In this document: positions 3,716 to 40,804 of the stretch, piece by piece
Position numbering within the stretch: the stretch's first letter is position 1
How the letters are laid out: each line of letters begins with the position of its first letter
Source of the DNA: a virus
DNA length: 41,720 nt
Reading direction: 5' to 3' (one strand)
IMG/VR virus record: IMGVR_UViG_3300030406_000983
Span: 1 to 41,720 of that record
Position numbers and translations under genes: made by a program
Notes under the pieces: model-generated
Database searches by the model: none
The model's input: the letters and a program-made list of their open reading frames with translations, nothing else
Told to the model about the DNA's origin: nothing

Positions 3716-3912
3716 AAAAGAAAAATACAATTACTAAACACGACATAAGACGTTCTATACAAAGTCTTTATGCTAGATTAGAATTTGCTACAGAAAGACT
3801 TAGGTTAACTGAAACTTTATTTAATGATTTTATTGAAATGCAGAAATTAGAAGATAAGTTTAGTAAGTTCTTAGATGGCAAATATAAACAGTCAGAACGT
3901 AAACAAAGCTGA
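3712..3912 (+). CDS. Small coiled-coil protein before TerL, 66 aa
   Basis: The start overlaps the previous stop (ATGA) and is preceded by GGAGA. The protein is basic at its N-terminus (KKKNTITKHDIRRS) and then forms one long heptad-like helix (about residues 15-55), including LRLTETLFNDFIEMQKLEDK, so a coiled-coil oligomer is likely. The last 38 bases overlap the start of the large terminase in another frame. I do not recognise it. A short DNA-binding or assembly factor would fit the charge pattern and place, but this is a guess. Confidence 0.55.
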   Translation: MKKKNTITKHDIRRSIQSLYARLEFATERLRLTETLFNDFIEMQKLEDKFSKFLDGKYKQSERKQS

Positions 3913-5443
3913 AGAAGCTTTACGATTAGCATATAAAGACCTTATATCTTTTGGTAAATTATTTTTACCAGATGATTTTATGAGGTCTGAAACTCCATTC
4001 TTTCATTATGAAATTGCAGATGCTATAGATGATAAAAATGTAAAACAAACTGCAATCATTGTTCCTAGAGGTCATGGTAAAACAGTTCTTACAAAAGCAT
4101 CTATTATAAAAGACTTTGTATTTGCTACAAAAGAAAACTTCCTATTTTATGCATGGGTATCTGCTACTCAGAAACTTAGTGTAGGAAATATGGATTATAT
4201 TAAATATCACTTAGAAAACAATGATTCCATAAAATATTACTTTGGACAAATGAAAGGAAAGAAATGGACAGAAGAAGATATAGAGTTATCAAATGGGTGT
4301 AAGCTTATTAGTAAAAGCAATGTGGCGGGAATTAGAGGAGGTGCGAAGTTACATAAAAGATATGACCTTATCGTACTCGATGACTTCGAGCATGAGGCCA
4401 ACACTATTACGAAGGAAGCCAGAGATAAGAACGCTAACCTTGTTACTGCTGTTGTTTATCCTGCTATCGAACCTCATACTGGTCGGTTGCGTGTTAATGG
4501 TACTCCAGTACATTATGACTCATTTATAAATAATTTATTAAGTAAATATGCAAAAGCTAAAAAAGAAAATAAAGACTTTGCTTGGAAGGTAATTACATAC
4601 AAAGCATTATTAGATGATAAGACTCCATTATGGGAAGGATGGTTTCCGTATTCTAAAATACAAGAAAAGAAAAAGTTTTATTCAGATTCTGGTCAACCAC
4701 AAAAATTCTATCAAGAGTACATGATGGAAGTACAATCAGAAGAAGATGCAATATGGAGAAGAGAACATATAAGATACTGGGAGGGATATTTTAAAAATGA
4801 AGATGGCATTAATTATATTGTCAAAGATGGCGATGATATACCTGTTAATACATTTATTGGTTGTGACCCCGCTACAGATATTGACACAAAGCATAGTGAC
4901 TTTTCTGTTATTACTGTCATAGCTATTGATGCAAATAATGAATTATATGTGCTTGAATATGAAAGACATCGTAGTATTCCTACTATTGGTTCTAAAAATC
5001 CAGAGACAGGAGATATTATAGGAAAGAAAGGTGTAGTAGATATTATACTAGAATTACATCAAAAATACAATTGTACTTCATCTACTGTAGAAGACGTAGC
5101 AATGAATAGAAGTATATTTCAAGCATTAAATGACGAAAGAAGAAGGTTAAATAAGTTCGATATTGCAGTAATTCCAGAAAAACCTGGCGGAGTACAGAAA
5201 AGAAATCGCATTTATTCTGGTCTTTCGGCTCGTTTTAGTACAGGAACAGTACATTTAAGAAGAAATATGTTTGATTTAATTAACGAAATCCTTACTTTCG
5301 GCCCGAAAATGGCTCACGATGATACAATTGAGAGTCTTTATTATTCACAAATACACGCTTTTCCTCCAAATATGAAAAAAGACAAGGAGAAAAAAAGTTG
5401 GTTTAAACCAAAACGTAAAGCGAAAAGTTGGTTAGTTGCATAG
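3875..5443 (+). CDS. terL: Terminase large subunit
   Basis: This is the ATP-driven motor and nuclease that packages DNA through the portal and cuts it to length. The ATPase half shows a Walker A motif, PRGHGKT (residues 64-70), and a Walker B motif, LIVLDDFE (165-172), the latter followed by Glu. The C-terminal RNase H-like nuclease half shows Asp331 in FIGCDPATD, Glu406 in STVEDVAMN and the last acidic cluster HDD (481-483) before TIESLYY. Its 522 residues are usual for the family. The gene overlaps the preceding small gene by 38 bases and lacks a clear ribosome binding site, so coupling is likely. Codons around the Walker B motif (about 4365-4505) are clearly more GC-rich than the rest, with CTC, ATC, CGG and CGT instead of the usual AT-ending choices. 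Confidence 0.93.
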   Translation: MANINSQNVNKAEEALRLAYKDLISFGKLFLPDDFMRSETPFFHYEIADAIDDKNVKQTAIIVPRGHGKTVLTKASIIKDFVFATKENFLFYAWVSATQKLSVGNMDYIKYHLENNDSIKYYFGQMKGKKWTEEDIELSNGCKLISKSNVAGIRGGAKLHKRYDLIVLDDFEHEANTITKEARDKNANLVTAVVYPAIEPHTGRLRVNGTPVHYDSFINNLLSKYAKAKKENKDFAWKVITYKALLDDKTPLWEGWFPYSKIQEKKKFYSDSGQPQKFYQEYMMEVQSEEDAIWRREHIRYWEGYFKNEDGINYIVKDGDDIPVNTFIGCDPATDIDTKHSDFSVITVIAIDANNELYVLEYERHRSIPTIGSKNPETGDIIGKKGVVDIILELHQKYNCTSSTVEDVAMNRSIFQALNDERRRLNKFDIAVIPEKPGGVQKRNRIYSGLSARFSTGTVHLRRNMFDLINEILTFGPKMAHDDTIESLYYSQIHAFPPNMKKDKEKKSWFKPKRKAKSWLVA

Positions 5444-5921: not shown

Positions 5922-6302
5922 ATGTATAAATTCGGAAAAAGAAGTAGAGAACGTCTCAAAGGCGTTGATTCTAGGTTAGTAAATGTTCTTAACGAATTGA
6001 TTAAAATAATGGATGTTACTATTATTGAAGGATTACGGAGTAAGGAGCGGCAAGAGCAATTGTTAGCACAGGGGAAAACTAAAACTAAGTATTCCAAACA
6101 CATAGAAGGAAAAGCTGTTGACCTCGCTCCTTACCCGATAGATTGGGAAGATAGAGAAATGTTTCATTATATGGGTGGAATGTTAAGAGGTATTGGTCAC
6201 TCAATGGGATTGAAGATTAGATGGGGAGGCGATTGGGATTCCGATGGTGATATTAATGATAACAAATTTGATGACTTAGTTCATGTAGAGATAAGGGATT
6301 AA
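5922..6302 (+). CDS. M15-family peptidase, probable endolysin
   Basis: This is a 126-residue single-domain peptidase of the M15 (VanY/L-Ala-D-Glu peptidase) type, which cleaves peptide cross-links of the cell wall to release progeny. The zinc-binding and catalytic residues are all visible: SKHIEGKAVD gives His60 and Asp67, and DLVHVEI gives His121. RSKERQEQLLAQGKTK (39-54) is the typical substrate-binding stretch before the metal site. There is no signal peptide and no cell-wall-binding domain, so it would need a holin or similar for export. It overlaps the portal gene by one base (TAATG). Placement between terminase and portal rather than with the likely holin genes at 17.9 kb is notable. 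A virion-associated role is possible. Confidence 0.85.
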   Translation: MYKFGKRSRERLKGVDSRLVNVLNELIKIMDVTIIEGLRSKERQEQLLAQGKTKTKYSKHIEGKAVDLAPYPIDWEDREMFHYMGGMLRGIGHSMGLKIRWGGDWDSDGDINDNKFDDLVHVEIRD

Positions 6303-8554
6303 TGGCAAGAGTAAATAACAAAACAAAAGCACAGTTAAATAAAAAGATATGGGATAGAGCAAACAATTCTCATAGACAAAGATGGCAAATCACTAGTCAA
6401 AAAGGATATGATTTTTATCTTAATGAACAATTGACTAAGGATGAAGTAACTATGTTGGAAGAATCTGGTATGCCAACATTTACGATAAATAGGATAACTC
6501 CTATTATAGAGATAATGAAATACTTTGTTACTGCCAATAATCCAAAATGGAAAGCTGTGGGAGCAACAGGAGATGATGTAGATGTAGCTCAAGTACATTC
6601 AGATGTTGCTGATTATTGTTGGTATTTATCAAATGGTAAATCTTTATATAGTCAAGTAATATTAGATTCTCTTACAAAAGGATTAGGATACTTTCTTGTA
6701 GATATAGATAAAGATGCAGATAGGGGAATGGGGGAGGTTCGATTCAATAGGATAGACCCTTATGATGTTTATGTAGACCCAGCTAGTAGAGACTTTTTAT
6801 TTAGAGACGCAGCTTTTATACAGATAAGAAAAAACATATCAAGAGCTAGGTTAATTAATATGATTCCTCAATCTGAGGCTAAAATTAAAAAAGTAACAAG
6901 AGGTACTGATGTTCAATCTTATTCACAAAGAGATACTGAATTTACAGATAGTATTCAACCAGACGATATTAAAAGTGGGGTAGGGCCTAATGGAGAAGAC
7001 GAAGATATACTAGCGTATTATGAAACATATACAAAGAAAAAGTTTAAGTATCACAATGTTTACATAAAAATTAAACCATCACCCGCTGAACTTGAAATAT
7101 TAAAAGAGGGTATACAAGAAGAATTAGAATCTTTTCAACAAGAATTAGAAGTGCAATTGATTGAAAAGCAAATGCAAATAGAACAACAAGTTCAAGAAGG
7201 TGAGATTATTCCACAAAGAGCAAAGTTGATGATTGAAAATTCTCAAAAAATGGCCGCACAGGCTATTAGAGAAAAAGAGATGGAACTCATATCAGCGGCT
7301 CAAGAACAAGCTACGATAATAAAACAACAAGTAATGAGTGATGCTGATTTTAACTTACTTAAAAATAGCGAAGAAGCTCAAAAGAATATTGTTGATTCAA
7401 TAGCGTTTTATGAAAATAGAATTGTAAAAACTTGTACTGTTGGAGATGAAACATTTTTATTTGAACAAATAATTCCTATTAGTGAATACCCTATAGTTCC
7501 GATTCCATATATGTACACAGGAACTCCATTTGTTATGAGTGCAGTTACTCCATTGATAGGTAAACAACAAGAGATAAACAAAGCACACCAAATCATGCTT
7601 CATAATGCAAACCTATCTTCTAATCTTAGATGGATGTATGAAGAAGGTTCTGTACCAGAAGATGAATGGGAAAAATACTCATCATCGCCAGGCGCATTAT
7701 TAAAGTATAGGCCAGGCTTTTCCCCTCCCACACCAATACAACCAGCTCCTATTAACAATGCATTTTTTACAGTAGTTCAGCAAGGCAAATCAGATGCAGA
7801 GTACATTAGTGGAGTGCCTTCTGCAATGATGGGATTTTCACAAGACCAAGCAGAAACATATCGTGGATTACTTGCAAACGATGAGTTTGGAACTAGAAGA
7901 TTAAAAGCTTGGATGAATAGTATTGTAGAACCTTCGTTAGAACACTTAGGTAGAGTGTTTAAAATGATGGCTCAAAAACATTACAATATTGAAAAAGTAT
8001 TTAGGATTGTACAACCAGAAGGTAATCAAGAAGAAAAAGAAGTAAGAATTAACATTAACTTATATAACGATTACGGAAAAGCAATTGGTAAATATAAAGA
8101 TTATGCTAGTGCTAGGTTTGATGTTAGAATTATAGCAGGTGCAACACTACCATTAAATAGATGGGCATTACTAGAAGAATACTTTAGGTGGTATCAAGCT
8201 GGATTAATTGACGATATTGCAATGTTAGCTGAAACAGATATTAGAAACAAAGATAAAATAGTAGAAAGAAAGTCTATGGTAGCTCAGATGCAAGGTCAAT
8301 TACAATCTATACAAGAATTAGTAAAAGAAAAAGACGGAACAATCGAAACACTCCAACGTCAATTAGTACAAGCTGGTATTAAAATGAAAGTTGGAGACGC
8401 TGGTAATGAAATACGAAAAGATGTCCTTCAAACAGAAGCTGAACAAAAACTTTTGAGAGGAATGTTAAAAGTTGAGTTCGAGAAAATGAAAGACGAAATG
8501 CAGTCTGATATGCAAGCTACGAGAGATGATGTAAGAAGAAACGAGCAATCTTAA
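6302..8554 (+). CDS. Portal protein (P22-like)
   Basis: This would be the dodecameric ring at the capsid vertex through which DNA enters and leaves. Support comes from the size (750 aa), the place after terminase and before scaffold and capsid, and family-typical stretches: FTINRITPIIEIMKYF near residue 60, then GLGYFLVDIDKD and RFNRIDPYDVYVDPASRDF around 125-165. Residues about 260-350 form a long Gln/Glu-rich coiled coil (ELEILKEGIQEELESFQQEL and on) that interrupts the fold. The C-terminal 100 residues are again helical with heptads, as expected for a barrel. The start is by TAATG overlap with the endolysin stop. The coiled-coil insertion is longer than I would expect for the family. Confidence 0.85.
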   Translation: MARVNNKTKAQLNKKIWDRANNSHRQRWQITSQKGYDFYLNEQLTKDEVTMLEESGMPTFTINRITPIIEIMKYFVTANNPKWKAVGATGDDVDVAQVHSDVADYCWYLSNGKSLYSQVILDSLTKGLGYFLVDIDKDADRGMGEVRFNRIDPYDVYVDPASRDFLFRDAAFIQIRKNISRARLINMIPQSEAKIKKVTRGTDVQSYSQRDTEFTDSIQPDDIKSGVGPNGEDEDILAYYETYTKKKFKYHNVYIKIKPSPAELEILKEGIQEELESFQQELEVQLIEKQMQIEQQVQEGEIIPQRAKLMIENSQKMAAQAIREKEMELISAAQEQATIIKQQVMSDADFNLLKNSEEAQKNIVDSIAFYENRIVKTCTVGDETFLFEQIIPISEYPIVPIPYMYTGTPFVMSAVTPLIGKQQEINKAHQIMLHNANLSSNLRWMYEEGSVPEDEWEKYSSSPGALLKYRPGFSPPTPIQPAPINNAFFTVVQQGKSDAEYISGVPSAMMGFSQDQAETYRGLLANDEFGTRRLKAWMNSIVEPSLEHLGRVFKMMAQKHYNIEKVFRIVQPEGNQEEKEVRININLYNDYGKAIGKYKDYASARFDVRIIAGATLPLNRWALLEEYFRWYQAGLIDDIAMLAETDIRNKDKIVERKSMVAQMQGQLQSIQELVKEKDGTIETLQRQLVQAGIKMKVGDAGNEIRKDVLQTEAEQKLLRGMLKVEFEKMKDEMQSDMQATRDDVRRNEQS

Positions 8555-9522: not shown

Positions 9523-11079
9523 ATGGCTACTGATGTATTCAGTTTAGGTACTTATTCAGACACGGCTTCGTGGAATGATGGTACTTCAAAAGACACAGGC
9601 GACCTCAGGCGGAAATACAATTTTGGGGAAAGAGTTTCCGAACTTTCAATAGCTCAAGACCCTTTTTTCCGATTCGTCTCACAAGTCGCTAAAAAACCTA
9701 CGGATGACCCAGAGTTCAAATTTACCGAGCAAAGACATTCGTATCATAAGAGATATGCATATATCATGGGATTCATCTCCAATGGAGCTAAAGAATTCGC
9801 AGATGCAGAACTCGACCAATCAGACGCAGGCGCAGCAGTATCAGGCGCTGGGCAATCTGTAGAACTATTTATGGCAACAGATTATAAATCAGCTGGTAAT
9901 ATTACTAGTATACATGGACAATCAGCTTCTAAAGTTGATGTTGGTTCTTCTGGTACAAGACCTACTTTTTTCTTACCTGGCCAAGTAGTTAAGATTCCAA
10001 TTTCAGCAGCAGGTGGCGGTGGAGCCGTCGCAGGTTATCACTTAATGAAAGTTGATAGCATTGTTGATGGTCTTTCAGAAGATGGTAAGGAATGTGTAAA
10101 GTTAGTTGGTAAGATTATCAAATTTGATAGTGCTGGTAACGAACTAGCTTCTTTCTTAAGCAATAACTTCTCTCCAGGCGGTAACGATGGAGATGGAGAC
10201 CAAGATGCTGGTGGTGAGCAAGTCTACGACCAAAACATCGCTTCTTCATTAGAAGGAAGACGTTCTTACGTTGTTGGAACTGCTCATGCACAAGGTTCTG
10301 GATACCCAGAGTCTTGGAAAGACCAACCTTACTCAACTGCTTTTGGACTAACTCAAATCTTCAAAACTGCAATGGCAATGGACAATACTACAAGAGCAAC
10401 TGTTCTTAAGTATGAACCTAACGAATTTGCAAGAATCTGGAGAACAAAGCTAATCGAGCATAAGTATGACATCGAAACTGCATTGTTGTTTGGTTCTCAA
10501 GGTGTTGTTGATGGAGTTAACTACACAGAAGGTGCAGTAAGTTTTATCACTAACTATGGAAACATCTTTGATGGTTCTACTATTGGAACAACAAAATCAC
10601 AAGATGATTTCTTAGATGATATGTCTCAGTTCTTAGACCCAAGATACAATAATGCAAATGCAACATTGTTCATGTGTTCTACTGATACTTACAATTGGAT
10701 GCACAAACTAAGTGGGTACTTCTCAGCTAACGTAGGTAAAGTCGCTAGTGGTGGTTCTGTACTAGGTCGTGCAGATTTCAGCATAGTTGGCAAGAAGCAA
10801 GTCTATGGATTAGACGTTACTCAAGTAATGACTCCTTATGGTGCAATGAATCTTGTTCGTAACATTCACTTGGATGGAACTGACATTAAGATTCTTGGTA
10901 TTAACATGGGTCATTGTGCATATAGACCATTAGTAGGTAATGGACTTAATCGTGATACTGCGGTATACGTTGGAGTTCAGACTCTTGAAAATAGTGGTGT
11001 TGACCGTAGGGTTGATTTAATTCAAACTGAGGCCGGTATGGAATGGCGTATGCCAGAAGCCCATGCGGTCTGGAAATAG
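9523..11079 (+). CDS. Major capsid protein
   Basis: This is the shell-forming protein, presumably of HK97 fold as in nearly all tailed phages. The N-terminal stretch RKYNFGERVSELSIAQDPFF (about residues 29-48), followed by FVSQVAKKPTDDPEFKFTEQ, resembles capsid proteins I associate with marine podo- and siphoviruses. The order scaffold, capsid, decoration is standard. A Gly/Ser/Asp-rich stretch (about 205-250) may be a surface loop or insertion. GAGGT serves as ribosome binding site. Codons in the middle (about 10130-10900) use more C-ending forms than the fibre genes, as expected for the most abundant protein. There is no obvious N-terminal propeptide cleavage site. Confidence 0.85.
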   Translation: MATDVFSLGTYSDTASWNDGTSKDTGDLRRKYNFGERVSELSIAQDPFFRFVSQVAKKPTDDPEFKFTEQRHSYHKRYAYIMGFISNGAKEFADAELDQSDAGAAVSGAGQSVELFMATDYKSAGNITSIHGQSASKVDVGSSGTRPTFFLPGQVVKIPISAAGGGGAVAGYHLMKVDSIVDGLSEDGKECVKLVGKIIKFDSAGNELASFLSNNFSPGGNDGDGDQDAGGEQVYDQNIASSLEGRRSYVVGTAHAQGSGYPESWKDQPYSTAFGLTQIFKTAMAMDNTTRATVLKYEPNEFARIWRTKLIEHKYDIETALLFGSQGVVDGVNYTEGAVSFITNYGNIFDGSTIGTTKSQDDFLDDMSQFLDPRYNNANATLFMCSTDTYNWMHKLSGYFSANVGKVASGGSVLGRADFSIVGKKQVYGLDVTQVMTPYGAMNLVRNIHLDGTDIKILGINMGHCAYRPLVGNGLNRDTAVYVGVQTLENSGVDRRVDLIQTEAGMEWRMPEAHAVWK

Positions 11080-29378: not shown

Positions 29379-32300
29379 ATGAGCGAATATACAAAAAAGT
29401 TACTAGAAGATTTTAGGAAAGAACTATATTCTAATAGAACAACTCCTGCTAGTCCTACATTACCTACCGCTCCAAGAAGTCAACCTTCTCCGTTAGGCAC
29501 TCTTAGACAAGAAAAATCCCTGTATGATATGCTATCTACAGGAGTATCTCCAGATGATGATGGTGAAAAAGTATCTGGTGTATTGAATGGTATAGGTGCT
29601 TTACTGTGGAACGCTGCTGATAGTGCAGCTTTGGGTATACCAAGTATAGTGTTTGAACAAACAACTGGTAGAAAGAGTGATTATGATATAATGAACAACA
29701 AAACTGAAGGTATGGCAACCTTTGGTAAAGTAGTTGGTCAAGGAATAGGTTTCCTTGCTCCAATGAAATATGTTGGTCTGGGTATAAAAGCTGGTGTTTC
29801 AGCTATTAATAAATTAGGAACTACTAGAATTATTGGGGAAGCATCTGAAGCAGCTGCTAAGTTTGCAAGTAAAAGTAAATTTGGTTTAGAAAGAGAATTA
29901 GTAGAGGATTCTGTAAGAAGTGGATTAAAATCTAAATCATTGAAGGGTCCTCAAGGTGCTATATCTAAATACGAAATAAGTATGGATGAAATTAAAAAAG
30001 TAGAAGGGGAGGTCCGAGGTAGTGTTTTTAATTCACTTAAAAGAGACTTTCCAGAAGCTGCTGATGACACTCTATTACGAATATCTGATGAAGCTACTAA
30101 ACTTTTAAAACAACCGGGTATACATATAAATAATCTTACTGACATTATTGGTAAATCTTTAAATGCTACATTCAGAGCTAGTGATTCCAATAAGATTACA
30201 AGATACTTTGCAAGAGCAGCTGACCAAGCTGTTTTATTTAGTGTATACAATTTAATGCAAGATGGTGTTTATTCTATTGCTGGCCAGAAAGAATTTGACC
30301 CAGCTAAAGATGTTGGTGATGCTATGTTATTTTCTGTTGCTCTACCTTTTATTGATATGATAGGTGGAGGTGGTAAAGTTCCAGTTATGAGAACTGCTAA
30401 TCAATTAAGAAAAGCATTAAGAAAAACAAAAACAAGAAACTATGATGACCTAACAGAAGCCCAAGCAAATGGATTACTTAGAGTATTAACAAGGGATAAT
30501 TATTTACAAGATAGTGTAATAGGCCAATTAGCTGGTAAATATAGATTTAAAACTATTGAGAAAGAAAAAGCTGTTGGTGCTATTAAAGAAATAATGAAAG
30601 AAGTAAAACCAGAAGTTGTCTGGAAAAGTTTCTACAAGGAAGCCAAAGAAGACGTTACTGCATCTTTAGGTAGAATGTTACTTGGTGGTTTATACTTTGA
30701 TTTTCATACTCTACTTGATACTGATTTATTATTGGCAATGGAAGGCGAGGAACTAGCAGCTCATTTTATTACTGGAGCATTTTTCTCTAGAATGAAAAGA
30801 CCTTTGTTTGAAGAAAATTACAAACAAATAAATAGTGACTTTACAGATAGGATAAAAGCTCTTAACTACTTAGGACTTGATGCTAAAGCATTGGAACATT
30901 ATGGCAGGGCGTTTAATGATGATATACATTTTGCAGCTGCTTATTCTGGAATAATTAAAGACCCAGTAGTTAGGCAAATAGAACAAATATTTGAAACTGA
31001 TAATCATAGAAAACAAACAAAAACTAAAGATGGTAAGGGAGTTCCTAGAAAAGCAGGTAGCGTTCCTAACTCTAGAATGGCTTTATATGCATTTGATTTG
31101 TATAAGATAGCAGCTTTACAAAAAAACTTAACAGACTCTAGAGTTGGAGAAAATTTTGTTGATATAGACAATCTTACGGCATCTCAAATATCTGATATTG
31201 CATCTAAGGTTCAGAATATAGAAATAACACAAGGGCCATTAAAAGGTGAAAAGTTAACGATAGAAAACTTTGAGACTTGGAAAAATGGATTAATGGATGA
31301 TGCATTAACAAATGTTGGAAAACTACATATAGATACAATAAGAAGTATAGCAAAAGAACTAGGTATACAACATGATGCTGATTATGAGTTTAACTTTGAC
31401 AAACCATTTAAGATTGCAGATATATCAATGGGTGATACAATAATTAATACTGATAGTGACTACCATGAAATATCTCAGTTTCTAAAGTTAAGAGCTGAGT
31501 TAGAAGCTGCTGGCCTTGTAGAAACTATGAATGTTCCAGAAAGTGCTAAATTGAAATTAGAACTATTAAAGAACACTAGTGAAACAAAAGAAAAAATAAC
31601 TGGAAACATTAAGGCAATGCTAGATACTCTGAGGTATGAAAACTATGGAGAAAATTATCCAGAAGAGATTCTTCCAAACTCTAATGCTTTTATATATGCA
31701 TTACAAAGACATAAGTATGCTAAGAAAAGGGATGCCTTATTTAACATAGCCGAAGGTAACACAAAGAATTTATCAGAAGCAGATAAAAATTTATATGGTA
31801 TACTTCAAAATACATTTGGAAATAAAGTTCCACTTATAAATAATACAGATAGACTTGAGTTTAAATTTGAAAATAAAGATGAAAAACAGATTGATGATAT
31901 AAAAAAGAGTGATGAATATGATAGAATTGAATATCAAATAAATCTTATTGCTCAAATATGGGGTCAAGGAAGTGGCAAATCTAAGGGTGTATTAAAGCCA
32001 GGCGAGCAAAATGCAATTGATTATGACAAAGCAAAACAACTTGTAGATGTTTTTCAAAAACAAGGATACTCAATAAACCAAGACTTTGTAAGAGAACAAA
32101 AAAGATGGCATTATGCTAAAATATTAAACTCTCCAAACATAACTCCTAATCACATATCTATTATAGAAAATATACAAGTGAACGATTTTGCTAAAATAGA
32201 AGATGTCAATGGAAGAAAAATTTTAAGTATACCATCATATCAACAAGTAGAAGCATTTTTAAATGATTCAGAAAGGTCTGGTCTTAGTAGGGAAGAAGCA

Positions 32301-35300
32301 GTTGTTTATGCAGATAGATATGAAAAATCATTACAGGCATTAGCAGTTGTAACTGGTGACTTTGTACAAATAAAACCACAGATTGCTCTAGACCAAAGTC
32401 AGAATACTGTATCAGCTATAGATGAAATGTATAGATTGACTACAGATTTTAATAGAGAAGTATTTTCTGAATACAAACAAATTATAGATGGACTAGACCA
32501 ACAAACTCAAAAGTTAGATGACGTTACAGATTTAATAAATAAACTATACATTAGTGATGAAGAAGGTGGTATCATTGGTGATAGGAAACAAATAACAGAC
32601 CAAGACGAACTTACACAACTTAATAATCAATTAGAAAAAATATTAGATAATGAAACAGGTTTATTGTCTAGTGAGTTTTTAGTAAAGATAAATTCTTTAA
32701 GAGATAATATTAATCAAGAGTATGAAAATGACCAAGTGTCTCGTCAAGTAGATAGTTTAGCAAAAGAAATAGAAAGAACTATTATATCAAATGCTAATAT
32801 AAATAAAAAACAATCAATGGTTTTAGATACATTTTTATTAGATGCTTCAACTAATGCAGATGATAGTATGCAATTTAAAAGAAGAACAGATAGAATAACT
32901 TCTAAGTTTGCAACTTATCTAAGAAACAAACATGGTAATGATTTACAACTTCCAGAAGCTCCTACTTTTAATGATGTGATAAGGGAAGCTAATAGAAGAG
33001 GTGATTCTAATTATATATTAAAAAGACTAACTCAATATCTTGAGGTGTTTAGAAGAGGATATAACGAAGAAAAATATTTTGAAATACAAGCTGCTGAAGC
33101 TCAGACAATAGCAGACTTTTCTACATTGAATATTCAACCATCCGATGCTATATCTCCTACTACAATATCTGTAAAGTATGAAAGATTTAATCCCATGTTA
33201 AAACAAGATTCACTTAGGGAGATGATTGAAAATGTTAGTTTGTCTTTAAGTGAGTCTGGTTTATCTGGTTTTAAAACTGCTTTTAAAGATATAAGAAGCG
33301 AAGTTGAAAGAGCATTGATAACAAAACATACCTATGAAGATGATGAAGGTCTTCAGCAATTTAATCCAGAATCTTATAATCAAGAACTAAATCAATTTAA
33401 TAAAGAGGTACTGCCTCAATTGTATAATAATGTACTAGGTAGAGATTATATAAAATCAGTTACTCTTTCTCAATCTGATGGAACTGGTGTATTTGAAATA
33501 TCAAAAAGACCTGTTGGTAAAGGAGTTTTATCTGAATTTGCTAGGGAACTTAGAGATACAAATGACCCAGATAATAACATTGATTTACTTATTATAGATG
33601 CAACTGCTACTTGGGGAGGTAGAAAGACTGACTTATTAGAAGTTCCAGATATGGTTCGTGTTATTGAAGAAGCTCAAATGTTTTCTAGGGGAACTGAAGA
33701 TATTAGAGACATGATAAAAGGTGAGGAAAGTTCTAGGCAAGAACAAGATATTCAACCAATGTCTGATTTTATTCCTATTATTATTAGTCAAAACACAGTT
33801 ATAGCAATACCTAGAAGTCAAATTATAGATGGTCAATTATCTAAAAGATTTAAATCTTGGTATGATTCTAAACTTGAATCTCTTGATTCTAAAAGTAAAA
33901 CATATAGGAATTATACTAAAATATATGGAGACTTTGTTAAGGATACTGAATCTGCTGTTTCCAAATCTGACGCTAGGCAGATGATTAGAGCAATGTACTT
34001 TGATAAAATAAATTCAAGTGAGTTCAACAATATAGTTACAGAAGCTAATACTCCATCTAGAGCAAATGAAATGGCAGCTAGTTTCTTCAAATATGTTACT
34101 CTTGGAGAAGCTACTGGTGCAAAAGTTCAAGCTAATAAACAATTGCTTGAGTTGTTAAAGGGTGAAGACTTTCTATCTGAAGACCAAAATAAATACATAG
34201 ATGAGTATTTAAATGATGAGGGATTTAACATTGTTACCATTGCAGATGAAACTGCAGCTCTATCAAACCCACTTACTGCTTCTAATCTTTACAAAGATAT
34301 AATAAAGAAAAGTGGTTACGATAAGGATTTAATAAAAGAAAATGTTGATGCAGTAGGAGAAGATAAAATATTTAAAAGTATAGTTAGTTCTTCTATGAAC
34401 GCTCAATCTTATTTGTCTCACAAAGCTGCTAGTATATTATACCTTCACAAAGGAAGAGATGCTACAGATAGTGAAAATAAACACAGTACGGCAGGTGTTA
34501 AACCAACTGTTCACTACAATGAGGGAATGAATAGTATACTGATGAAAACTAATTTTGTTTATGACCCTAAAATTGCAGACCTAATGGAAGCAAAGGGTGT
34601 AGACATATTAACAACTGAATCTGCAACTAAGGCATTTTATAAGGATAAGGTATCATTGAGTTCTGATGATATAAAAGGAATGGATGTAGTTAACGATGTT
34701 AATATTAGTCGTAGTGTATTAGACAAAGCAGGGGATGATAATAAAGCAAAGATAACATTAGAAAATATATTTTTAGGTAAAGTTGAGGATAGAAAGAAAG
34801 TTGCAAATATAACTTATGCAATTACTGATTTTTTAGATAGGAGTGGTTATGAATCTTTTAGAGATGATTTTGTAAACTACCAAGAAAAACTAAAAGCATA
34901 CTTTAGTATTATTGGACAGGTCTCAAAACAGAATGGCAATAGGCAAGCAGCTGCTGAATATTTTTATAGAATATTAAGAGAAGACAATGCATTATTTGAA
35001 GACTCTACTAATGGAATAAATCAAAAACTTTTATCTTTAGGATTAGACCCTAACTCTGAATTTATTAGGTCTGGATTAAGAAATGTTGCTACACAAGCTT
35101 TAATTAATGGAGTAAGAAGTCCTAAGACTGCTGGAGCATCATACTCTATACTAATACCATATTTAGAAGGTTCAGTACCAATGTATCAAAATGTTGGAGA
35201 TGCTAACAAGAGAGTACAAATAGCTATTGGCGGAAAGAAACTATCATACTCAGATAGATTTACAACTATGCAAGATGTTGAAAAAATACAATATGTATTA

Positions 35301-38105
35301 GAAGTTAATAGGAACAATAAAAAAAGAGATGTTCAAGTAAGTAGAATTGGTAAAAAGTTTATAGTAAATGACCCATACAAAGAACTAACTGTTAATGATT
35401 TAAAAAAAGAAATAGCACAAATACAAAGAGTTGAAGAAGGTCTTGGTGACAAAAGAACTATGAAAACATTGTTTGACCAGTTTAATGATATAAACAAGAG
35501 GTCCGATACAAAATACTTTTTGGAAAGTTTGTCTTTAAGGATGCCTAATCTTGGAGGCGATGTTGCAATACATAAGGTAGAAGGATTTTATGATAAAGAA
35601 CAGGGTAATGTTGTTGGTGTAAACATATATGATATAGCGCAAACACATCAAGCTGACTTCGATGTTGATGCTATGTTTAACTACAATAGGAAACCTACAA
35701 AGTTTACTAACTCTATATGGAAAGACTTAGGTTCATCTGTAGATGCTTATATATTTCCTACTGATTTATCTTCTATGGATATTTTTGGTTTTGGAAATGC
35801 AGCTGATGGTGAAGTAGTGAAAGCTGGTAAGGGTACTGGATATACTGACAATTTATTTGTACATATGCAAGATTATCAACAATCAAAAAGAAATTTTGGA
35901 GTTGCTAAAAAGTTATCTAATGAGTTATCTTTTTTCTTAAGAGAACCAGATTTAATAAACATGGATAACTTAGGTGTCGAAATTATTAAAAAAGGCACAA
36001 AAGAATACAAAGACTTTTTACAAGCATATAAAAATACATTACAATCTATTATTGATGCAGCTAAAAAACCAAATTGGGCAAGTAGAGCAAAGCAAGGTCA
36101 AATACAAGATTATATATTGTTTGGAGATAAACCAACTGATTATAATTTAGATAATGAAATTTCAAACTTTGGGCAAGAAACTTTTAAAGGATTCTTCCAA
36201 CTAAAAGGAGACAATTTAGAAATTAAAAAAGACATTATAAAAGAAATGTTAAGAGTTAAATCTAAATCTCAAAGAATACTTACGGATGTTTTTGATGCAG
36301 CTGGAAGAAGGCCACCAGATGCTAATGAAATAGGAATGGCTAGAGCTGAAATAAATTCTTTTTATTCTAATCCTTCTAAATTTTTATATGATAGATTGCA
36401 ATTTAAATATAGGTCTATGGGTCAAAGTGGAGCATCGCTTCTTTCAAGATTGAATAATCAGTTTTTTGGTGAGTCATTGAGAAGTATTAAAGATTACAAA
36501 TCTTTATTTCAAAAAAGTGTTGGTAAAACATTGCAACCAACTAACGAACCTATAGTTATAGAAAAAAATAATATTAAAGATATTAAAGATTCTACAATAT
36601 CTGGTTTCTTATTAGACCAAATGACTCAAGATAAATTAAGTATTGAATCTTATTCTGATAAAAGCACTAAACAAGGAAGACTAGCTACAAAAGATTTAGA
36701 ATCTATTATGGATAGATTAAATGCTTTTAGGTCAATATCTCCAGATGCTGATTATCGAGAGTTTGCAAAACAATTAGATGATGAAAATGGTATTATAGCC
36801 GATACTAATTTAAGAATATATTTAAATAAGTATAGTTCTAATAGCGTTTCCGAGCAAGATATTAAACAATACTCTTTATTGCACTCAGCGTTAACCAAGC
36901 AAAGGTCTTCATTGCAAAGATTTATTAGAAGAGCTGATAGAAATCAAAGCGATTCTCTATTAAGAGCAAAAGATAAATTAAAATCAATTCATCAATTGTT
37001 AGATTATTTACACGAAAAAGAATCAGAGGTTATTAAGAATAATATTACAGACCCAAAAGGTTTTTATAAAGTAAGAACTAAAAATATAACAATGGGAACT
37101 AGGGGTACTATATATAATAATAATAAAAGTAAACCTTCATATGTATACAAAGAAATTAAAAGTGATGATGGTAGAACATTTTTTAAAGAAGCTGGTTTTA
37201 TATCCCCATCTAGTAAGTATACATTCGAGGGTGGTAATTATTATATAATAGACAATCCAATAAGATATGTTGATTTAAATAAAAAAGAATATATAGATGC
37301 TATTTCAATGTTGATGATAACTGGAAATGTTGAAGTAAGGCATTTAGGTATAGACCCAGCAAGAGAAGAATCGTTCATAGCTGATTTCCAAAAGCTAAAT
37401 AAAATGCTCGGTGGTCTTGTTCAAACAACTTACAATGAAAGTAGAAACTCTCCTTTTGCTAAAGAAAATTGGCAAATATCAAGAGACATAGAGGATAGAC
37501 TTGTTTCTGATTTTATAACAAAATATTCAGATGGAGAGAAACTTAATGCATCCGAATCTCAATCTGCTTTTAATAATTTAATTAGATATATGTTAAAACC
37601 TCAATTGCAATTTGGAGACATAGCATTTGCAAAAAATACTAATGTTAAAATGCCTGGCCTTAAACAAAATAAAAGATTGGGCAATGCAGTATTTAGACAT
37701 CTAAGCAATAATAATAAGGATGACATACTAGAAGATATAGTAAGAAACTATGGAGCTGAATTTAGAAGAAGGTATGATGGTGTTCATAGTGAGCAAGAAT
37801 CAAAGTTTTACAGAAGTGATTTATATGCAATGGACAATAGTTTTTATAGGACATATAGTGACCCAGCATTAGAATATGCTATAACAAATAGATTGTTGTA
37901 TGATAGCCCTGCTTTAGCAGCTCATTTTAGACATTCTATTGGTAGATTAGGTAACACATCTAAAACCTTTTATGATAAAGAAGGTAATTATAATGTACTG
38001 TTTAAGTATGGGAATTATAAAGATATAGATGTTCAAACAAGACTTAATGTTGATGACAAAGAAAGAATAATTGAAAATAAAGATTTATTGGAGTGTTATA
38101 GATAA
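29379..38105 (+). CDS. Giant virion protein with RNA-polymerase-like active site
   Basis: 2908 residues. The N-terminus has a Pro-rich part (21-38) and hydrophobic patches (66-92, 112-144), then long helical regions. The key block is residues 2054-2097: R2054-M-P-N, 39 residues on QADFDVDAMF with Asp2093, Asp2095 and Asp2097. In cellular RNA polymerase beta-prime the same order is R-A-P-T ... NADFDGDQM, 35 residues apart, where the aspartates bind catalytic magnesium. Virion RNA polymerases of crAss-like phages use a DxDxD version. Other supporting parts are GVDILTTESATKAF (1740-1753) with Lys1751, where a beta-type lysine barrel might lie, and SIIDAAKKPNW around 2226. It could be a single-chain polymerase ejected into the host to transcribe early genes. 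No T7- or N4-type polymerase motif was seen. It overlaps the next gene by one base. Confidence 0.75.
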   Translation: MSEYTKKLLEDFRKELYSNRTTPASPTLPTAPRSQPSPLGTLRQEKSLYDMLSTGVSPDDDGEKVSGVLNGIGALLWNAADSAALGIPSIVFEQTTGRKSDYDIMNNKTEGMATFGKVVGQGIGFLAPMKYVGLGIKAGVSAINKLGTTRIIGEASEAAAKFASKSKFGLERELVEDSVRSGLKSKSLKGPQGAISKYEISMDEIKKVEGEVRGSVFNSLKRDFPEAADDTLLRISDEATKLLKQPGIHINNLTDIIGKSLNATFRASDSNKITRYFARAADQAVLFSVYNLMQDGVYSIAGQKEFDPAKDVGDAMLFSVALPFIDMIGGGGKVPVMRTANQLRKALRKTKTRNYDDLTEAQANGLLRVLTRDNYLQDSVIGQLAGKYRFKTIEKEKAVGAIKEIMKEVKPEVVWKSFYKEAKEDVTASLGRMLLGGLYFDFHTLLDTDLLLAMEGEELAAHFITGAFFSRMKRPLFEENYKQINSDFTDRIKALNYLGLDAKALEHYGRAFNDDIHFAAAYSGIIKDPVVRQIEQIFETDNHRKQTKTKDGKGVPRKAGSVPNSRMALYAFDLYKIAALQKNLTDSRVGENFVDIDNLTASQISDIASKVQNIEITQGPLKGEKLTIENFETWKNGLMDDALTNVGKLHIDTIRSIAKELGIQHDADYEFNFDKPFKIADISMGDTIINTDSDYHEISQFLKLRAELEAAGLVETMNVPESAKLKLELLKNTSETKEKITGNIKAMLDTLRYENYGENYPEEILPNSNAFIYALQRHKYAKKRDALFNIAEGNTKNLSEADKNLYGILQNTFGNKVPLINNTDRLEFKFENKDEKQIDDIKKSDEYDRIEYQINLIAQIWGQGSGKSKGVLKPGEQNAIDYDKAKQLVDVFQKQGYSINQDFVREQKRWHYAKILNSPNITPNHISIIENIQVNDFAKIEDVNGRKILSIPSYQQVEAFLNDSERSGLSREEAVVYADRYEKSLQALAVVTGDFVQIKPQIALDQSQNTVSAIDEMYRLTTDFNREVFSEYKQIIDGLDQQTQKLDDVTDLINKLYISDEEGGIIGDRKQITDQDELTQLNNQLEKILDNETGLLSSEFLVKINSLRDNINQEYENDQVSRQVDSLAKEIERTIISNANINKKQSMVLDTFLLDASTNADDSMQFKRRTDRITSKFATYLRNKHGNDLQLPEAPTFNDVIREANRRGDSNYILKRLTQYLEVFRRGYNEEKYFEIQAAEAQTIADFSTLNIQPSDAISPTTISVKYERFNPMLKQDSLREMIENVSLSLSESGLSGFKTAFKDIRSEVERALITKHTYEDDEGLQQFNPESYNQELNQFNKEVLPQLYNNVLGRDYIKSVTLSQSDGTGVFEISKRPVGKGVLSEFARELRDTNDPDNNIDLLIIDATATWGGRKTDLLEVPDMVRVIEEAQMFSRGTEDIRDMIKGEESSRQEQDIQPMSDFIPIIISQNTVIAIPRSQIIDGQLSKRFKSWYDSKLESLDSKSKTYRNYTKIYGDFVKDTESAVSKSDARQMIRAMYFDKINSSEFNNIVTEANTPSRANEMAASFFKYVTLGEATGAKVQANKQLLELLKGEDFLSEDQNKYIDEYLNDEGFNIVTIADETAALSNPLTASNLYKDIIKKSGYDKDLIKENVDAVGEDKIFKSIVSSSMNAQSYLSHKAASILYLHKGRDATDSENKHSTAGVKPTVHYNEGMNSILMKTNFVYDPKIADLMEAKGVDILTTESATKAFYKDKVSLSSDDIKGMDVVNDVNISRSVLDKAGDDNKAKITLENIFLGKVEDRKKVANITYAITDFLDRSGYESFRDDFVNYQEKLKAYFSIIGQVSKQNGNRQAAAEYFYRILREDNALFEDSTNGINQKLLSLGLDPNSEFIRSGLRNVATQALINGVRSPKTAGASYSILIPYLEGSVPMYQNVGDANKRVQIAIGGKKLSYSDRFTTMQDVEKIQYVLEVNRNNKKRDVQVSRIGKKFIVNDPYKELTVNDLKKEIAQIQRVEEGLGDKRTMKTLFDQFNDINKRSDTKYFLESLSLRMPNLGGDVAIHKVEGFYDKEQGNVVGVNIYDIAQTHQADFDVDAMFNYNRKPTKFTNSIWKDLGSSVDAYIFPTDLSSMDIFGFGNAADGEVVKAGKGTGYTDNLFVHMQDYQQSKRNFGVAKKLSNELSFFLREPDLINMDNLGVEIIKKGTKEYKDFLQAYKNTLQSIIDAAKKPNWASRAKQGQIQDYILFGDKPTDYNLDNEISNFGQETFKGFFQLKGDNLEIKKDIIKEMLRVKSKSQRILTDVFDAAGRRPPDANEIGMARAEINSFYSNPSKFLYDRLQFKYRSMGQSGASLLSRLNNQFFGESLRSIKDYKSLFQKSVGKTLQPTNEPIVIEKNNIKDIKDSTISGFLLDQMTQDKLSIESYSDKSTKQGRLATKDLESIMDRLNAFRSISPDADYREFAKQLDDENGIIADTNLRIYLNKYSSNSVSEQDIKQYSLLHSALTKQRSSLQRFIRRADRNQSDSLLRAKDKLKSIHQLLDYLHEKESEVIKNNITDPKGFYKVRTKNITMGTRGTIYNNNKSKPSYVYKEIKSDDGRTFFKEAGFISPSSKYTFEGGNYYIIDNPIRYVDLNKKEYIDAISMLMITGNVEVRHLGIDPAREESFIADFQKLNKMLGGLVQTTYNESRNSPFAKENWQISRDIEDRLVSDFITKYSDGEKLNASESQSAFNNLIRYMLKPQLQFGDIAFAKNTNVKMPGLKQNKRLGNAVFRHLSNNNKDDILEDIVRNYGAEFRRRYDGVHSEQESKFYRSDLYAMDNSFYRTYSDPALEYAITNRLLYDSPALAAHFRHSIGRLGNTSKTFYDKEGNYNVLFKYGNYKDIDVQTRLNVDDKERIIENKDLLECYR

Positions 38106-40804
38106 TGTCTCAAATCGCACAATGTACAACAATAGAAGAAAAGCAATTAGTAACAAAGCAAAATCTAGATTTACTTAGAAGACTTTACAATGGTGAAAAT
38201 GCTACTATAGAAGGAACTAAATATAATCTTGGAGATACTTTAAAAACACAATACGGTGATATAGATTCCGAAAGTGGTAGAAGAATGTTTGAAATTATTG
38301 TAGATAGGGGAACTTATAAACCAGCGATTGATTCTTTTACTGGATTTACTGATGGAGATTTTAGAAGAATTAAAAATGAATTAATTAGAGAAGCTAGAAA
38401 TTTAAAGAATCCTAAAATTAGTGTATTGGAAAAGAATTTATTTGTAAGGCGTGGTGTTATGAATAAATATGCTATAACAAAATACATCAATGGAGAGATA
38501 AATAATGCAGCTAACTACGAGAGAACACAGTTTTCTACATTTCTTAAAGCAAACCAAGAGATAATGAAGCTATTAAAAGCTGATGCTATTATGAATAGAG
38601 GTGATACAAGATTTAGGTTGGGTGTAAAATCAGTAAGTGATTTAGAAAAACTAGAAAACGATTTAACTATAGCTGCTAACAATCCACAATCTCCAGAACA
38701 AGCACAAAGAGTAATGGAAATATCTAATCAAATGGCAGAGATATTTAAGTCTGATGGAGGCATGCCCCTTCAAGAACTTCGTATGTTTTTAGAAGGTGAG
38801 TTAGAACAAAAAAATGGTGCTTATTTTAAATACTTAGATGATGGTACAAGAGTTCAAATAGCTGATGAGGTTGTCAAAGCTGGTAAGATAGGAAGAAGAT
38901 TATTAAACGATATGGGTGATGTTCTTATAAATGGATTAAAACAACATAAGAAAGTAATAAGACAATCATATCTTAATAGTACCAAAGACTCCGCTTTATT
39001 GCTTCCTAATGGGGATAAAGTTAAAAGGTATGAGGAAACTATAGACAGTCAAATAAAAGCAGTGCAAGAGGGAGTTAAGGGTGGTAATTATTTTCCTCAT
39101 TATTTAATAGAATCATTTCTAAATGTAGAAAAGATAATGGATAATGCAGAAAAAAATAAATATCAAGATATTGATTCAGACTTAAATGACCTTACCAATA
39201 TATTTACAAAAATGTCTAATGAAATAGGAACACCAAAGAGTGCTTTGTTTAGAGGTGATATAGCATTTGAAAACTACCAGAAAAATCCTATGGCAGTATT
39301 AAGAAAGTATTCACTAGATGCTATTGCTTTTAATAAAACTAATTACTTGAAGAATATAATGTTTGAAGGACTAAGAGGTTTGCCAAAAGATTCTGACGTT
39401 GCTCAAGGATTAGGTGATTACATACTAGATACATATACAGTTGCAGAAAAAGGATATTCAGATAGACCTTCTTGGGTTAATAAGACAGTAAGAACATTAA
39501 CAGGCGTTCAGTTCTTGAGTAAGTTAGGTTTCGGTATAGGTACTGCTGCTAGAAATACATTATCTGGTATGTACTATTTACAAGGAGTTGGTAATAGAGC
39601 ATTTGTTAAGTATCTAAGAGAGTATGAATTATCTAAAGACCAGAAGATATATGGTGAGGAAGGTAAGGAAAAGTCTCTTGCAGACATAATTACTGCTGTA
39701 GAAAAAGAACAAGGTTTTAAGTTTGAAGATATGGCATCTCCGTTATTCACAGAAGGACTTGTTCAAACTGAAGGTGTAAGACAAAAAGACATAGAAGTAA
39801 AACAAGATGGTGATGGAAACTTTAAACTTCAATACAAAGATGGTAAGAACTGGAGAGCATTTGATTCTGTAATGACATCAGCAGCTGGTAAGGGTGCGAT
39901 ATTCCAAAGGGTAACAGAGAATTTTTTAAGAAAACATATGTTTAGATACAGTTTTATTTCAAAGTTTAAAGAGATGAAATCTGGAGGATTAAAGAATCAA
40001 CAATCTATAAACATAGCAAAGAAACACGCTTTGGATATGGTTAATAAATATGCATTTGAATATTCTCCATCTCAGAAAGCACCAATAATAGGTGGAACTA
40101 AAAGTGGATTAGGTGCATTTGGGCAAGTAGCATTTCAGTTTATGCATTACCCAATGTCTTTTTTACAATTACAATCTGAAGTATTAAGAAAATCTAAAGA
40201 CGCTGTTATAGCTGGTCAATGGGATTCTCCAGACCTTCATGTTCCATTAAGATTCGCAGGTTTATATTTATTTACAGAAATGATGAGTGGTGTATTGAAT
40301 CTTGATTTACAAAGACTAATGGAAAATGATACAGTAGAAAGAATTAAAACACTTAAACAAGGATTGGAAGGGGAAGACGTTAAAGGTAGAGGTTTTCTTG
40401 GACCGACAGTTGGTGAATTATTTTACTATTCAACATTGTTTGATTGGGTAAAAACACCAGACAACCTAGCTGCTCAAATGATTGTAGGTTATAATGATGC
40501 TTATGGTTTAACTGATGAGCAGAAACGTGCTAGGTTATTATCTTCATTAAATGTACAGGCATCTAAGTTTATAAACAAAGATTATAAAGCACTAAGAACT
40601 GGTAATGGATGGGATTTGTTAATGCATGAGTTTGGATTGTATCCAAATAAAAGAACCAGAGAAATGAGAAGAGCAGAACCATTGAGAACATTGCTACCTC
40701 CAGTAAAGAAGAAAAAGAAATCTAAAAAGAATCAACCTGTAATAGATAGTAAGAAGAATCCTCAAGAGGAACTTACTAAACTCTACAGAGCGATGGGGAT
40801 TTAA
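38105..40804 (+). CDS. Probable second large ejection protein, 899 aa
   Basis: Starts by TAATG overlap with the giant gene, so both are made in a fixed ratio. In some relatives the two could be one protein. The sequence is helical and charged for 450 residues, then has hydrophobic parts: FGIGTAARNTLSGMYYLQGV (around 475) and FQFMHYPMSFLQLQSE (around 677), then LRFAGLYLFTEMMSGVLNL (around 720). Such segments suit a protein that enters or crosses the cell envelope. The C-terminus has a Lys-run (PPVKKKKKSKKNQP, about 858-871). No lytic transglycosylase or polymerase motif was found. It is the last gene of the late block and probably builds the ejection channel with the giant protein. Confidence 0.6.
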   Translation: MSQIAQCTTIEEKQLVTKQNLDLLRRLYNGENATIEGTKYNLGDTLKTQYGDIDSESGRRMFEIIVDRGTYKPAIDSFTGFTDGDFRRIKNELIREARNLKNPKISVLEKNLFVRRGVMNKYAITKYINGEINNAANYERTQFSTFLKANQEIMKLLKADAIMNRGDTRFRLGVKSVSDLEKLENDLTIAANNPQSPEQAQRVMEISNQMAEIFKSDGGMPLQELRMFLEGELEQKNGAYFKYLDDGTRVQIADEVVKAGKIGRRLLNDMGDVLINGLKQHKKVIRQSYLNSTKDSALLLPNGDKVKRYEETIDSQIKAVQEGVKGGNYFPHYLIESFLNVEKIMDNAEKNKYQDIDSDLNDLTNIFTKMSNEIGTPKSALFRGDIAFENYQKNPMAVLRKYSLDAIAFNKTNYLKNIMFEGLRGLPKDSDVAQGLGDYILDTYTVAEKGYSDRPSWVNKTVRTLTGVQFLSKLGFGIGTAARNTLSGMYYLQGVGNRAFVKYLREYELSKDQKIYGEEGKEKSLADIITAVEKEQGFKFEDMASPLFTEGLVQTEGVRQKDIEVKQDGDGNFKLQYKDGKNWRAFDSVMTSAAGKGAIFQRVTENFLRKHMFRYSFISKFKEMKSGGLKNQQSINIAKKHALDMVNKYAFEYSPSQKAPIIGGTKSGLGAFGQVAFQFMHYPMSFLQLQSEVLRKSKDAVIAGQWDSPDLHVPLRFAGLYLFTEMMSGVLNLDLQRLMENDTVERIKTLKQGLEGEDVKGRGFLGPTVGELFYYSTLFDWVKTPDNLAAQMIVGYNDAYGLTDEQKRARLLSSLNVQASKFINKDYKALRTGNGWDLLMHEFGLYPNKRTREMRRAEPLRTLLPPVKKKKKSKKNQPVIDSKKNPQEELTKLYRAMGI

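Follow-up and report, generated by a model that had tools for sequence, protein, structure and literature searches.

A probable single-chain, two-barrel virion RNA polymerase in an uncultured podovirus group outside Crassvirales

The virion RNA polymerase (RNAP) of phage N4 has a T7-like right-hand fold and not double-psi beta-barrels (DPBBs). The virion RNAP of the crAss-like phage phi14:2, gp66 (gp077 in KC821624; PDB 6VR4), is a single chain that carries two such barrels, and it has been detected in virions by tandem mass spectrometry. Ejection of the crassvirus cargo by way of partial unfolding has been proposed (PMC10172136). Here we describe a gene for a giant protein of 2,908 residues in bases 1–41720 (the window) of the 51,698-base virus record IMGVR_UViG_3300030406_000983. 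The protein is very probably a virion-packaged, single-chain, two-barrel DNA-dependent RNAP, and as such it adds to an already known kind of single-chain virion polymerase a new lineage that lies outside Crassvirales.

The original prediction singled out R2054-M-P in this protein, followed 39 residues on by ADFDVDAMF, and the sequence reads exactly so. The same distance of 39 separates R1322 from D1361 in the phi14:2 virion RNAP, while E. coli RpoC has a spacing of 35 (R425–D460). A comparable RxP...D[FYH]DxD arrangement appeared in 10 of 20,000 shuffles of the giant protein (about 1 in 2,000); the motif by itself is suggestive, and its conservation is the real test. Direct searches with the giant protein matched two contigs and no annotated phage. 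Uncultured viral contigs often carry related terminases and portals, and these records hold similar proteins of about 2,880–2,980 residues in the same place; all eight searched records longer than 40 kb carry one, cut in a single case by the contig end. A wider scan yielded 62 relatives in addition to the window. The clade of the window is small (L001 and L002 are 69% identical, L235 39%), most others lying at 15–18%. In one relative (G013; L165, 6095–14732) the giant protein consists of two overlapping open reading frames (ORFs) of 1,126 and 1,761 residues, an apparent frameshift and perhaps a sequencing error.

Conservation was judged on 36 representatives less than 90% identical, most of them at about 17% identity to the window protein. 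The three Asp residues of the DxDxD motif (D2093, D2095 and D2097) and P2056 are kept in every one, so that the check on Asp conservation proposed with the original prediction came out in its favour. D2061, D2085, D1742, G1919, Y2102, Q2222 and D2226 likewise never vary. The same holds for K1708, K1723 and K1751, which correspond to the conserved basic residues expected of the second barrel. A distant member (L164, 4388–13216) has DHDGD, with Ala replacing the Arg of RxP, and so shows that the active-site motif varies in nature.

Profile comparison points to homology with the Crassvirales RNAPs over both barrel regions. Against a profile built from eight crAss-like RNAP cores, and with 40 column shuffles as the control in each case, HHalign matched the DxDxD region with a probability of 94.2 (E 1.1e-7; score 77.6, shuffle maximum 21.7) and, using a homologue-anchored profile, 194 columns spanning the lysine-barrel region with a probability of 93.3 (E 2.8e-7; score 73.0, shuffle maximum 22.9). 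When the window-anchored profile was split, each half matched its own crAss-like region, with the order kept (scores 42.8 and 41.3), and a six-sequence profile (the window clade plus the more distant L232 and L234) gave a score of 42.3 spanning both. Within a single chain, the lysine barrel thus comes ahead of the DxDxD barrel, as expected from the single-chain QDE-1/gp66 type that had been proposed, and we regard two-barrel polymerase homology as close to certain.

The predicted overall fold likewise matches solved two-barrel polymerases. For the AlphaFold2 model of the window core, the only credible Foldseek match in the PDB was 6VR4 (E 1.1e-7; next match E 1.6). The core of a homologue was modelled with a mean predicted local distance difference test (pLDDT) score of 85.9 and a predicted template-modelling (TM) score of 0.86; here 6VR4 again came first (E 2.6e-9), followed by QDE-1 (E 6.6e-4), RDR2, and PhiKZ and cellular RNAPs, and all 50 PDB matches listed were two-barrel polymerases. 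A T7-like single-subunit fold of the N4 type was not found among them. In this model the lysines lie among four strands plus one helix, after which two further strands follow, and the predicted secondary structure there and around DxDxD is compatible with double-psi barrels. The multisubunit-type polymerase of the original prediction, for which a fold comparison had been suggested as a check, therefore stands as homology and as fold. Among predicted viral structures, crAss-like proteins and unnamed proteins matched with TM-scores up to 0.74, so some relatives have already been deposited without a visible name.

Several observations weigh against this interpretation. R2054, kept in 34 of the 36 representatives, is Ala in the other two. 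No RNAP family of Pfam matched any of 37 members. The window-core model is of moderate quality, and its confidence is low (pLDDT 62.4). Superposed on 6VR4, the models reach TM-scores of just 0.27 and 0.29 with a large root mean square deviation, which means that only the local fold and the order of elements match. The barrel topology was taken from the order of DSSP elements, not from coordinates. Finally, the part following DPBB-A, where a bridge helix and trigger loop would lie, gave no HHalign signal (14.3), although a helix is predicted at or beside the invariant Q2222 and D2226, and the order of these elements is the one expected. Single-sequence searches of PHROGs, Pfam, PDB sequences and phage records gave no match to the giant protein, nor did profile searches of the PDB, and its profile gave no signal with single sequences of P23-45 gp96 and gp64, YonO, or E. 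coli RpoB and RpoC.

That the protein belongs to the virion is not visible in its sequence; this status is drawn from gene position and from the relatives. We infer its enzymatic activity, virion presence, ejection, early transcription and cysteine chemistry, and of these consider polymerase activity, packaging and ejection likely. The cysteine content bears on packaging. The giant protein holds one Cys in 2,908 residues, against about 17 expected from the other proteins of the record. This near-absence matches known ejected proteins: no Cys is present in T7 gp15 and gp16, N4 virion RNAP or P23-45 gp96. The known or likely ejected giant proteins without Cys comprise, besides these, N4 gp51 and two podovirus giant proteins, those of phiA008 and ctwe8250 (the whole set from L263, L264, L246, L247, L248), and absence of Cys is possibly a general signature of threaded phage proteins. 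Some crassviral RNAPs hold 0–7 internal Cys, so their bodies are Cys-poor but not always Cys-free.

The position of the remaining Cys is conserved. Exactly one, 0–4 residues from the C terminus, is present in 44 of 44 full-length members, the window included; an ORF of similar size to the 899-residue downstream protein follows the polymerase in all 49 relatives with enough downstream sequence, and its sole Cys lies 4–6 residues after a start codon in each of them. A comparable arrangement is seen in the cargo set of phi14:2, crAss001 and DAC15, where Cys is C-terminal in the gp47-like protein, at both ends of the RNAP, and N-terminal in the gp49-like protein. In Fpv1 and cr1_1 the RNAP forms one chain with the protein before it, and the only end Cys of that chain is C-terminal; in Carjivirus and Rudgehvirus it forms one chain with the protein after it, and the only end Cys is N-terminal. 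Counted over the RNAP cargo set of seven crAss-like phages and the window, a Cys lies within 10 residues of the end at 22 of 22 junction ends and at 0 of 16 outer ends (Fisher P 4e-11, a guide only, as the phages are related); Dulem41, outside this count, agrees. By this rule the giant protein would behave as the fused Fpv1/cr1_1 type and the 899-residue protein as gp49. Profile homology between the latter and crassvirus gp49 was not detected, and homology of the N-terminal 700 residues with gp47/gp078-type cargo was not accepted (score 22.9, shuffle maximum 21.6). The N-terminal 400 or so residues (29379–30600) contain Gly-rich, moderately hydrophobic stretches with conserved G73, G86, G120, G124 and G133; they resemble channel-forming ejection domains, to which homology was not established.

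The terminal Cys pattern suggests that the polymerase and the 899-residue protein are coupled for injection. In the mechanism we propose, the polymerase would be stored in the particle, thread the tail mostly in an unfolded state, either before the DNA or together with it, and refold in the host to transcribe early phage genes before the host polymerase is recruited. The 899-residue protein would travel with it, C2906 of the polymerase joining C7 of its partner head to tail, probably as a disulfide that the host cytoplasm reduces. More generally, we lean slightly towards the view that the cargo is coupled head to tail, through a single Cys on each side of a junction (C-terminal in one protein, N-terminal in the next), into one threadable, Cys-poor polypeptide train, giving a fixed exit order and separation upon reduction in the host, and that this rule is common to the podovirus group of the window and Crassvirales despite their different capsids. 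Literature searches, confined to an open-licence library, gave nothing relevant on Cys at the ends of phage proteins that are ejected. In Carjivirus and Rudgehvirus, annotation places thioredoxin-like genes close to the cargo genes of the RNAP set (L258, 46–324; L262, 32142–32417), which is possibly relevant to the reduction of cargo Cys.

Among the alternatives, the one that survives best, though still unlikely, is that the two-barrel RNAP is unpackaged, being made in the cell to serve middle or late genes in the manner of P23-45 gp64 or the PhiKZ non-virion RNAP. Phages do have non-virion enzymes of this kind, P23-45 gp64 among them (PMC10770324); yet here the gene lies within the late head and tail run, its product has the size of ejected cargo and a virion protein as its closest structural relative, its single Cys resembles the ejected proteins of T7 and N4, and its paired terminal Cys are common to crassvirus cargo. 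We find it improbable that the fold is that of a degenerate polymerase devoid of catalysis, whose remaining role is structural or in ejection: the giant protein is indeed very divergent from all known RNAPs, but three Asp and three Lys never change across 36 divergent members, whereas identity over the remainder of the chain falls to about 17%. Equally little weight falls on an enzyme that has this fold but uses a different template or makes a different product, such as RNA-dependent or DNA synthesis (RDR/QDE-1-like, PolD-like). The best PDB matches do include QDE-1 and RDR2, with QDE-1 structures bound to RNA and to DNA templates, but the DNA-dependent phi14:2 enzyme is best in both structure searches and the context is that of a double-stranded DNA phage. 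That the motif arose by chance, the giant protein being an injection protein unrelated to polymerases, is hardly credible, since the empty single-sequence searches, the shuffle frequency and the giant Cys-free injection proteins of other podoviruses that lack a DxDxD polymerase motif are outweighed by site invariance, two independent profile matches and the fold matches.

Table 1. Coordinates of the putative polymerase, its proposed partner and context genes in the window
Feature	Position	Strand	Remarks
Giant protein, 2,908 residues	29379..38105	+	Putative two-barrel RNA polymerase in a single chain, probably carried in the virion as cargo; one Cys (C2906)
DPBB-B region, residues 1708–1800	34500..34778	+	K1708/K1723/K1751; strands inferred from homologue model
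K1708	34500..34502	+	Invariant 36/36; aligns with phi14:2 K1012
K1723	34545..34547	+	Invariant 36/36; K1708–K1723 spacing 15, as phi14:2 K1012–K1027
K1751	34629..34631	+	Invariant 36/36; aligns with phi14:2 K1065
DPBB-A region, residues 2046–2104	35514..35690	+	Strands, helix, DxDxD, strand
R2054-M-P2056	35538..35546	+	39 residues ahead of first catalytic Asp
D2093-F-D2095-V-D2097	35655..35669	+	Predicted Mg2+-binding catalytic triad; invariant 36/36
C2906	38094..38096	+	Sole Cys of giant protein, third residue from C terminus
899-residue downstream protein	38105..40804	+	Proposed partner cargo; similar-sized ORF in 49/49 relatives with enough downstream sequence
C7	38123..38125	+	Sole Cys of 899-residue protein
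Terminase large subunit	3875..5443	+	Context; phrog_38
P22-type portal	6302..8554	+	Context; Pfam P22_portal, phrog_156
SU10-type major capsid protein	9523..11079	+	Context; Pfam SU10_MCP, not a crassvirus capsid

The polymerase ORF takes up about 17% of the 51.7-kb record and stands at the end of the late head and tail gene run. On the opposite strand, the rest of the record encodes a DnaB helicase, a methyltransferase, a Cas4-like exonuclease and a resolvase, and no second RNA polymerase was seen among its genes. Capsid (Pfam Crass_capsid), portal and terminase families of Crassvirales were not found in the window phage: the three genes are Crass_capsid, phrog_6547 and phrog_6681 in phi14:2, versus SU10_MCP, P22_portal/phrog_156 and phrog_38 here. 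Judged by its head genes, the phage is outside Crassvirales. The head gene set had been called non-crassviral before, which the two Pfam matches bear out; the label of a P22-like portal holds as well, but 'nozzle' and 'pelagic-type' were not confirmed. The terminase and portal have hundreds of close relatives in uncultured viral contigs and only distant matches (<60% identity) in 50,697 annotated phage records, and the group is apparently common, without a cultured member. The annotated phages with the nearest portals, phiA008 and ctwe8250, have giant proteins without the DxDxD polymerase motif. A search of GTDB contigs found no host. The region of the replication genes held sigma-70-like promoters at no higher frequency than shuffled sequence did, and no phage promoter was found.

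It appears that single-chain cellular-type virion polymerases reach beyond Crassvirales, into a diverse group of uncultured podoviruses whose capsids are different. Neither Pfam and PHROGs nor BLAST against annotated phages reveals the giant gene there. The finding bears on whether the cargo set of polymerase and partner is of old origin or is passed between phages. The junction-Cys rule poses a more novel question than the polymerase itself and may matter more; if true, it would offer a testable answer to how short-tailed phages, with only a narrow tail to pass, eject several very large proteins in a set order, and it would supply a signature in the sequence by which ejected proteins can be recognized.

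Of the systems described so far, the phi14:2 virion RNAP and the other Crassvirales RNAPs come closest: they too are single chains with the lysine barrel ahead of the DxDxD barrel and terminal Cys at cargo junctions, and their profile gives the two matches; phi14:2 shares the Arg-to-Asp spacing of 39 and the Lys-to-Lys spacing of 15 and is the best PDB match. Yet direct BLAST or HMMER similarity is absent, the phi14:2 enzyme has 2,180 residues compared with 2,908, and phi14:2 has two genes where the window has one, homology between the N-terminal half of the window protein and gp078 not being established; the window phage is also about half the size of phi14:2, and its capsid, portal and terminase families are non-crassviral. 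P23-45 gp96, a tape-measure-fused virion RNAP, and gp64 are two-barrel phage enzymes as well (DFDGD/DYDGD), and gp96, itself Cys-free, places the RNAP inside a giant virion protein; they differ in giving no HHalign signal and in belonging to a siphovirus tape measure rather than podovirus cargo. The eukaryotic QDE-1/RDR polymerases, which rank second among the PDB matches to the homologue model, are also single-chain and two-barrel, but they are cellular, act in RNA silencing and match more weakly than phi14:2. N4 gp50, in turn, is a giant single-chain podovirus virion RNAP without Cys, and unlike the window protein it lacks paired terminal Cys.

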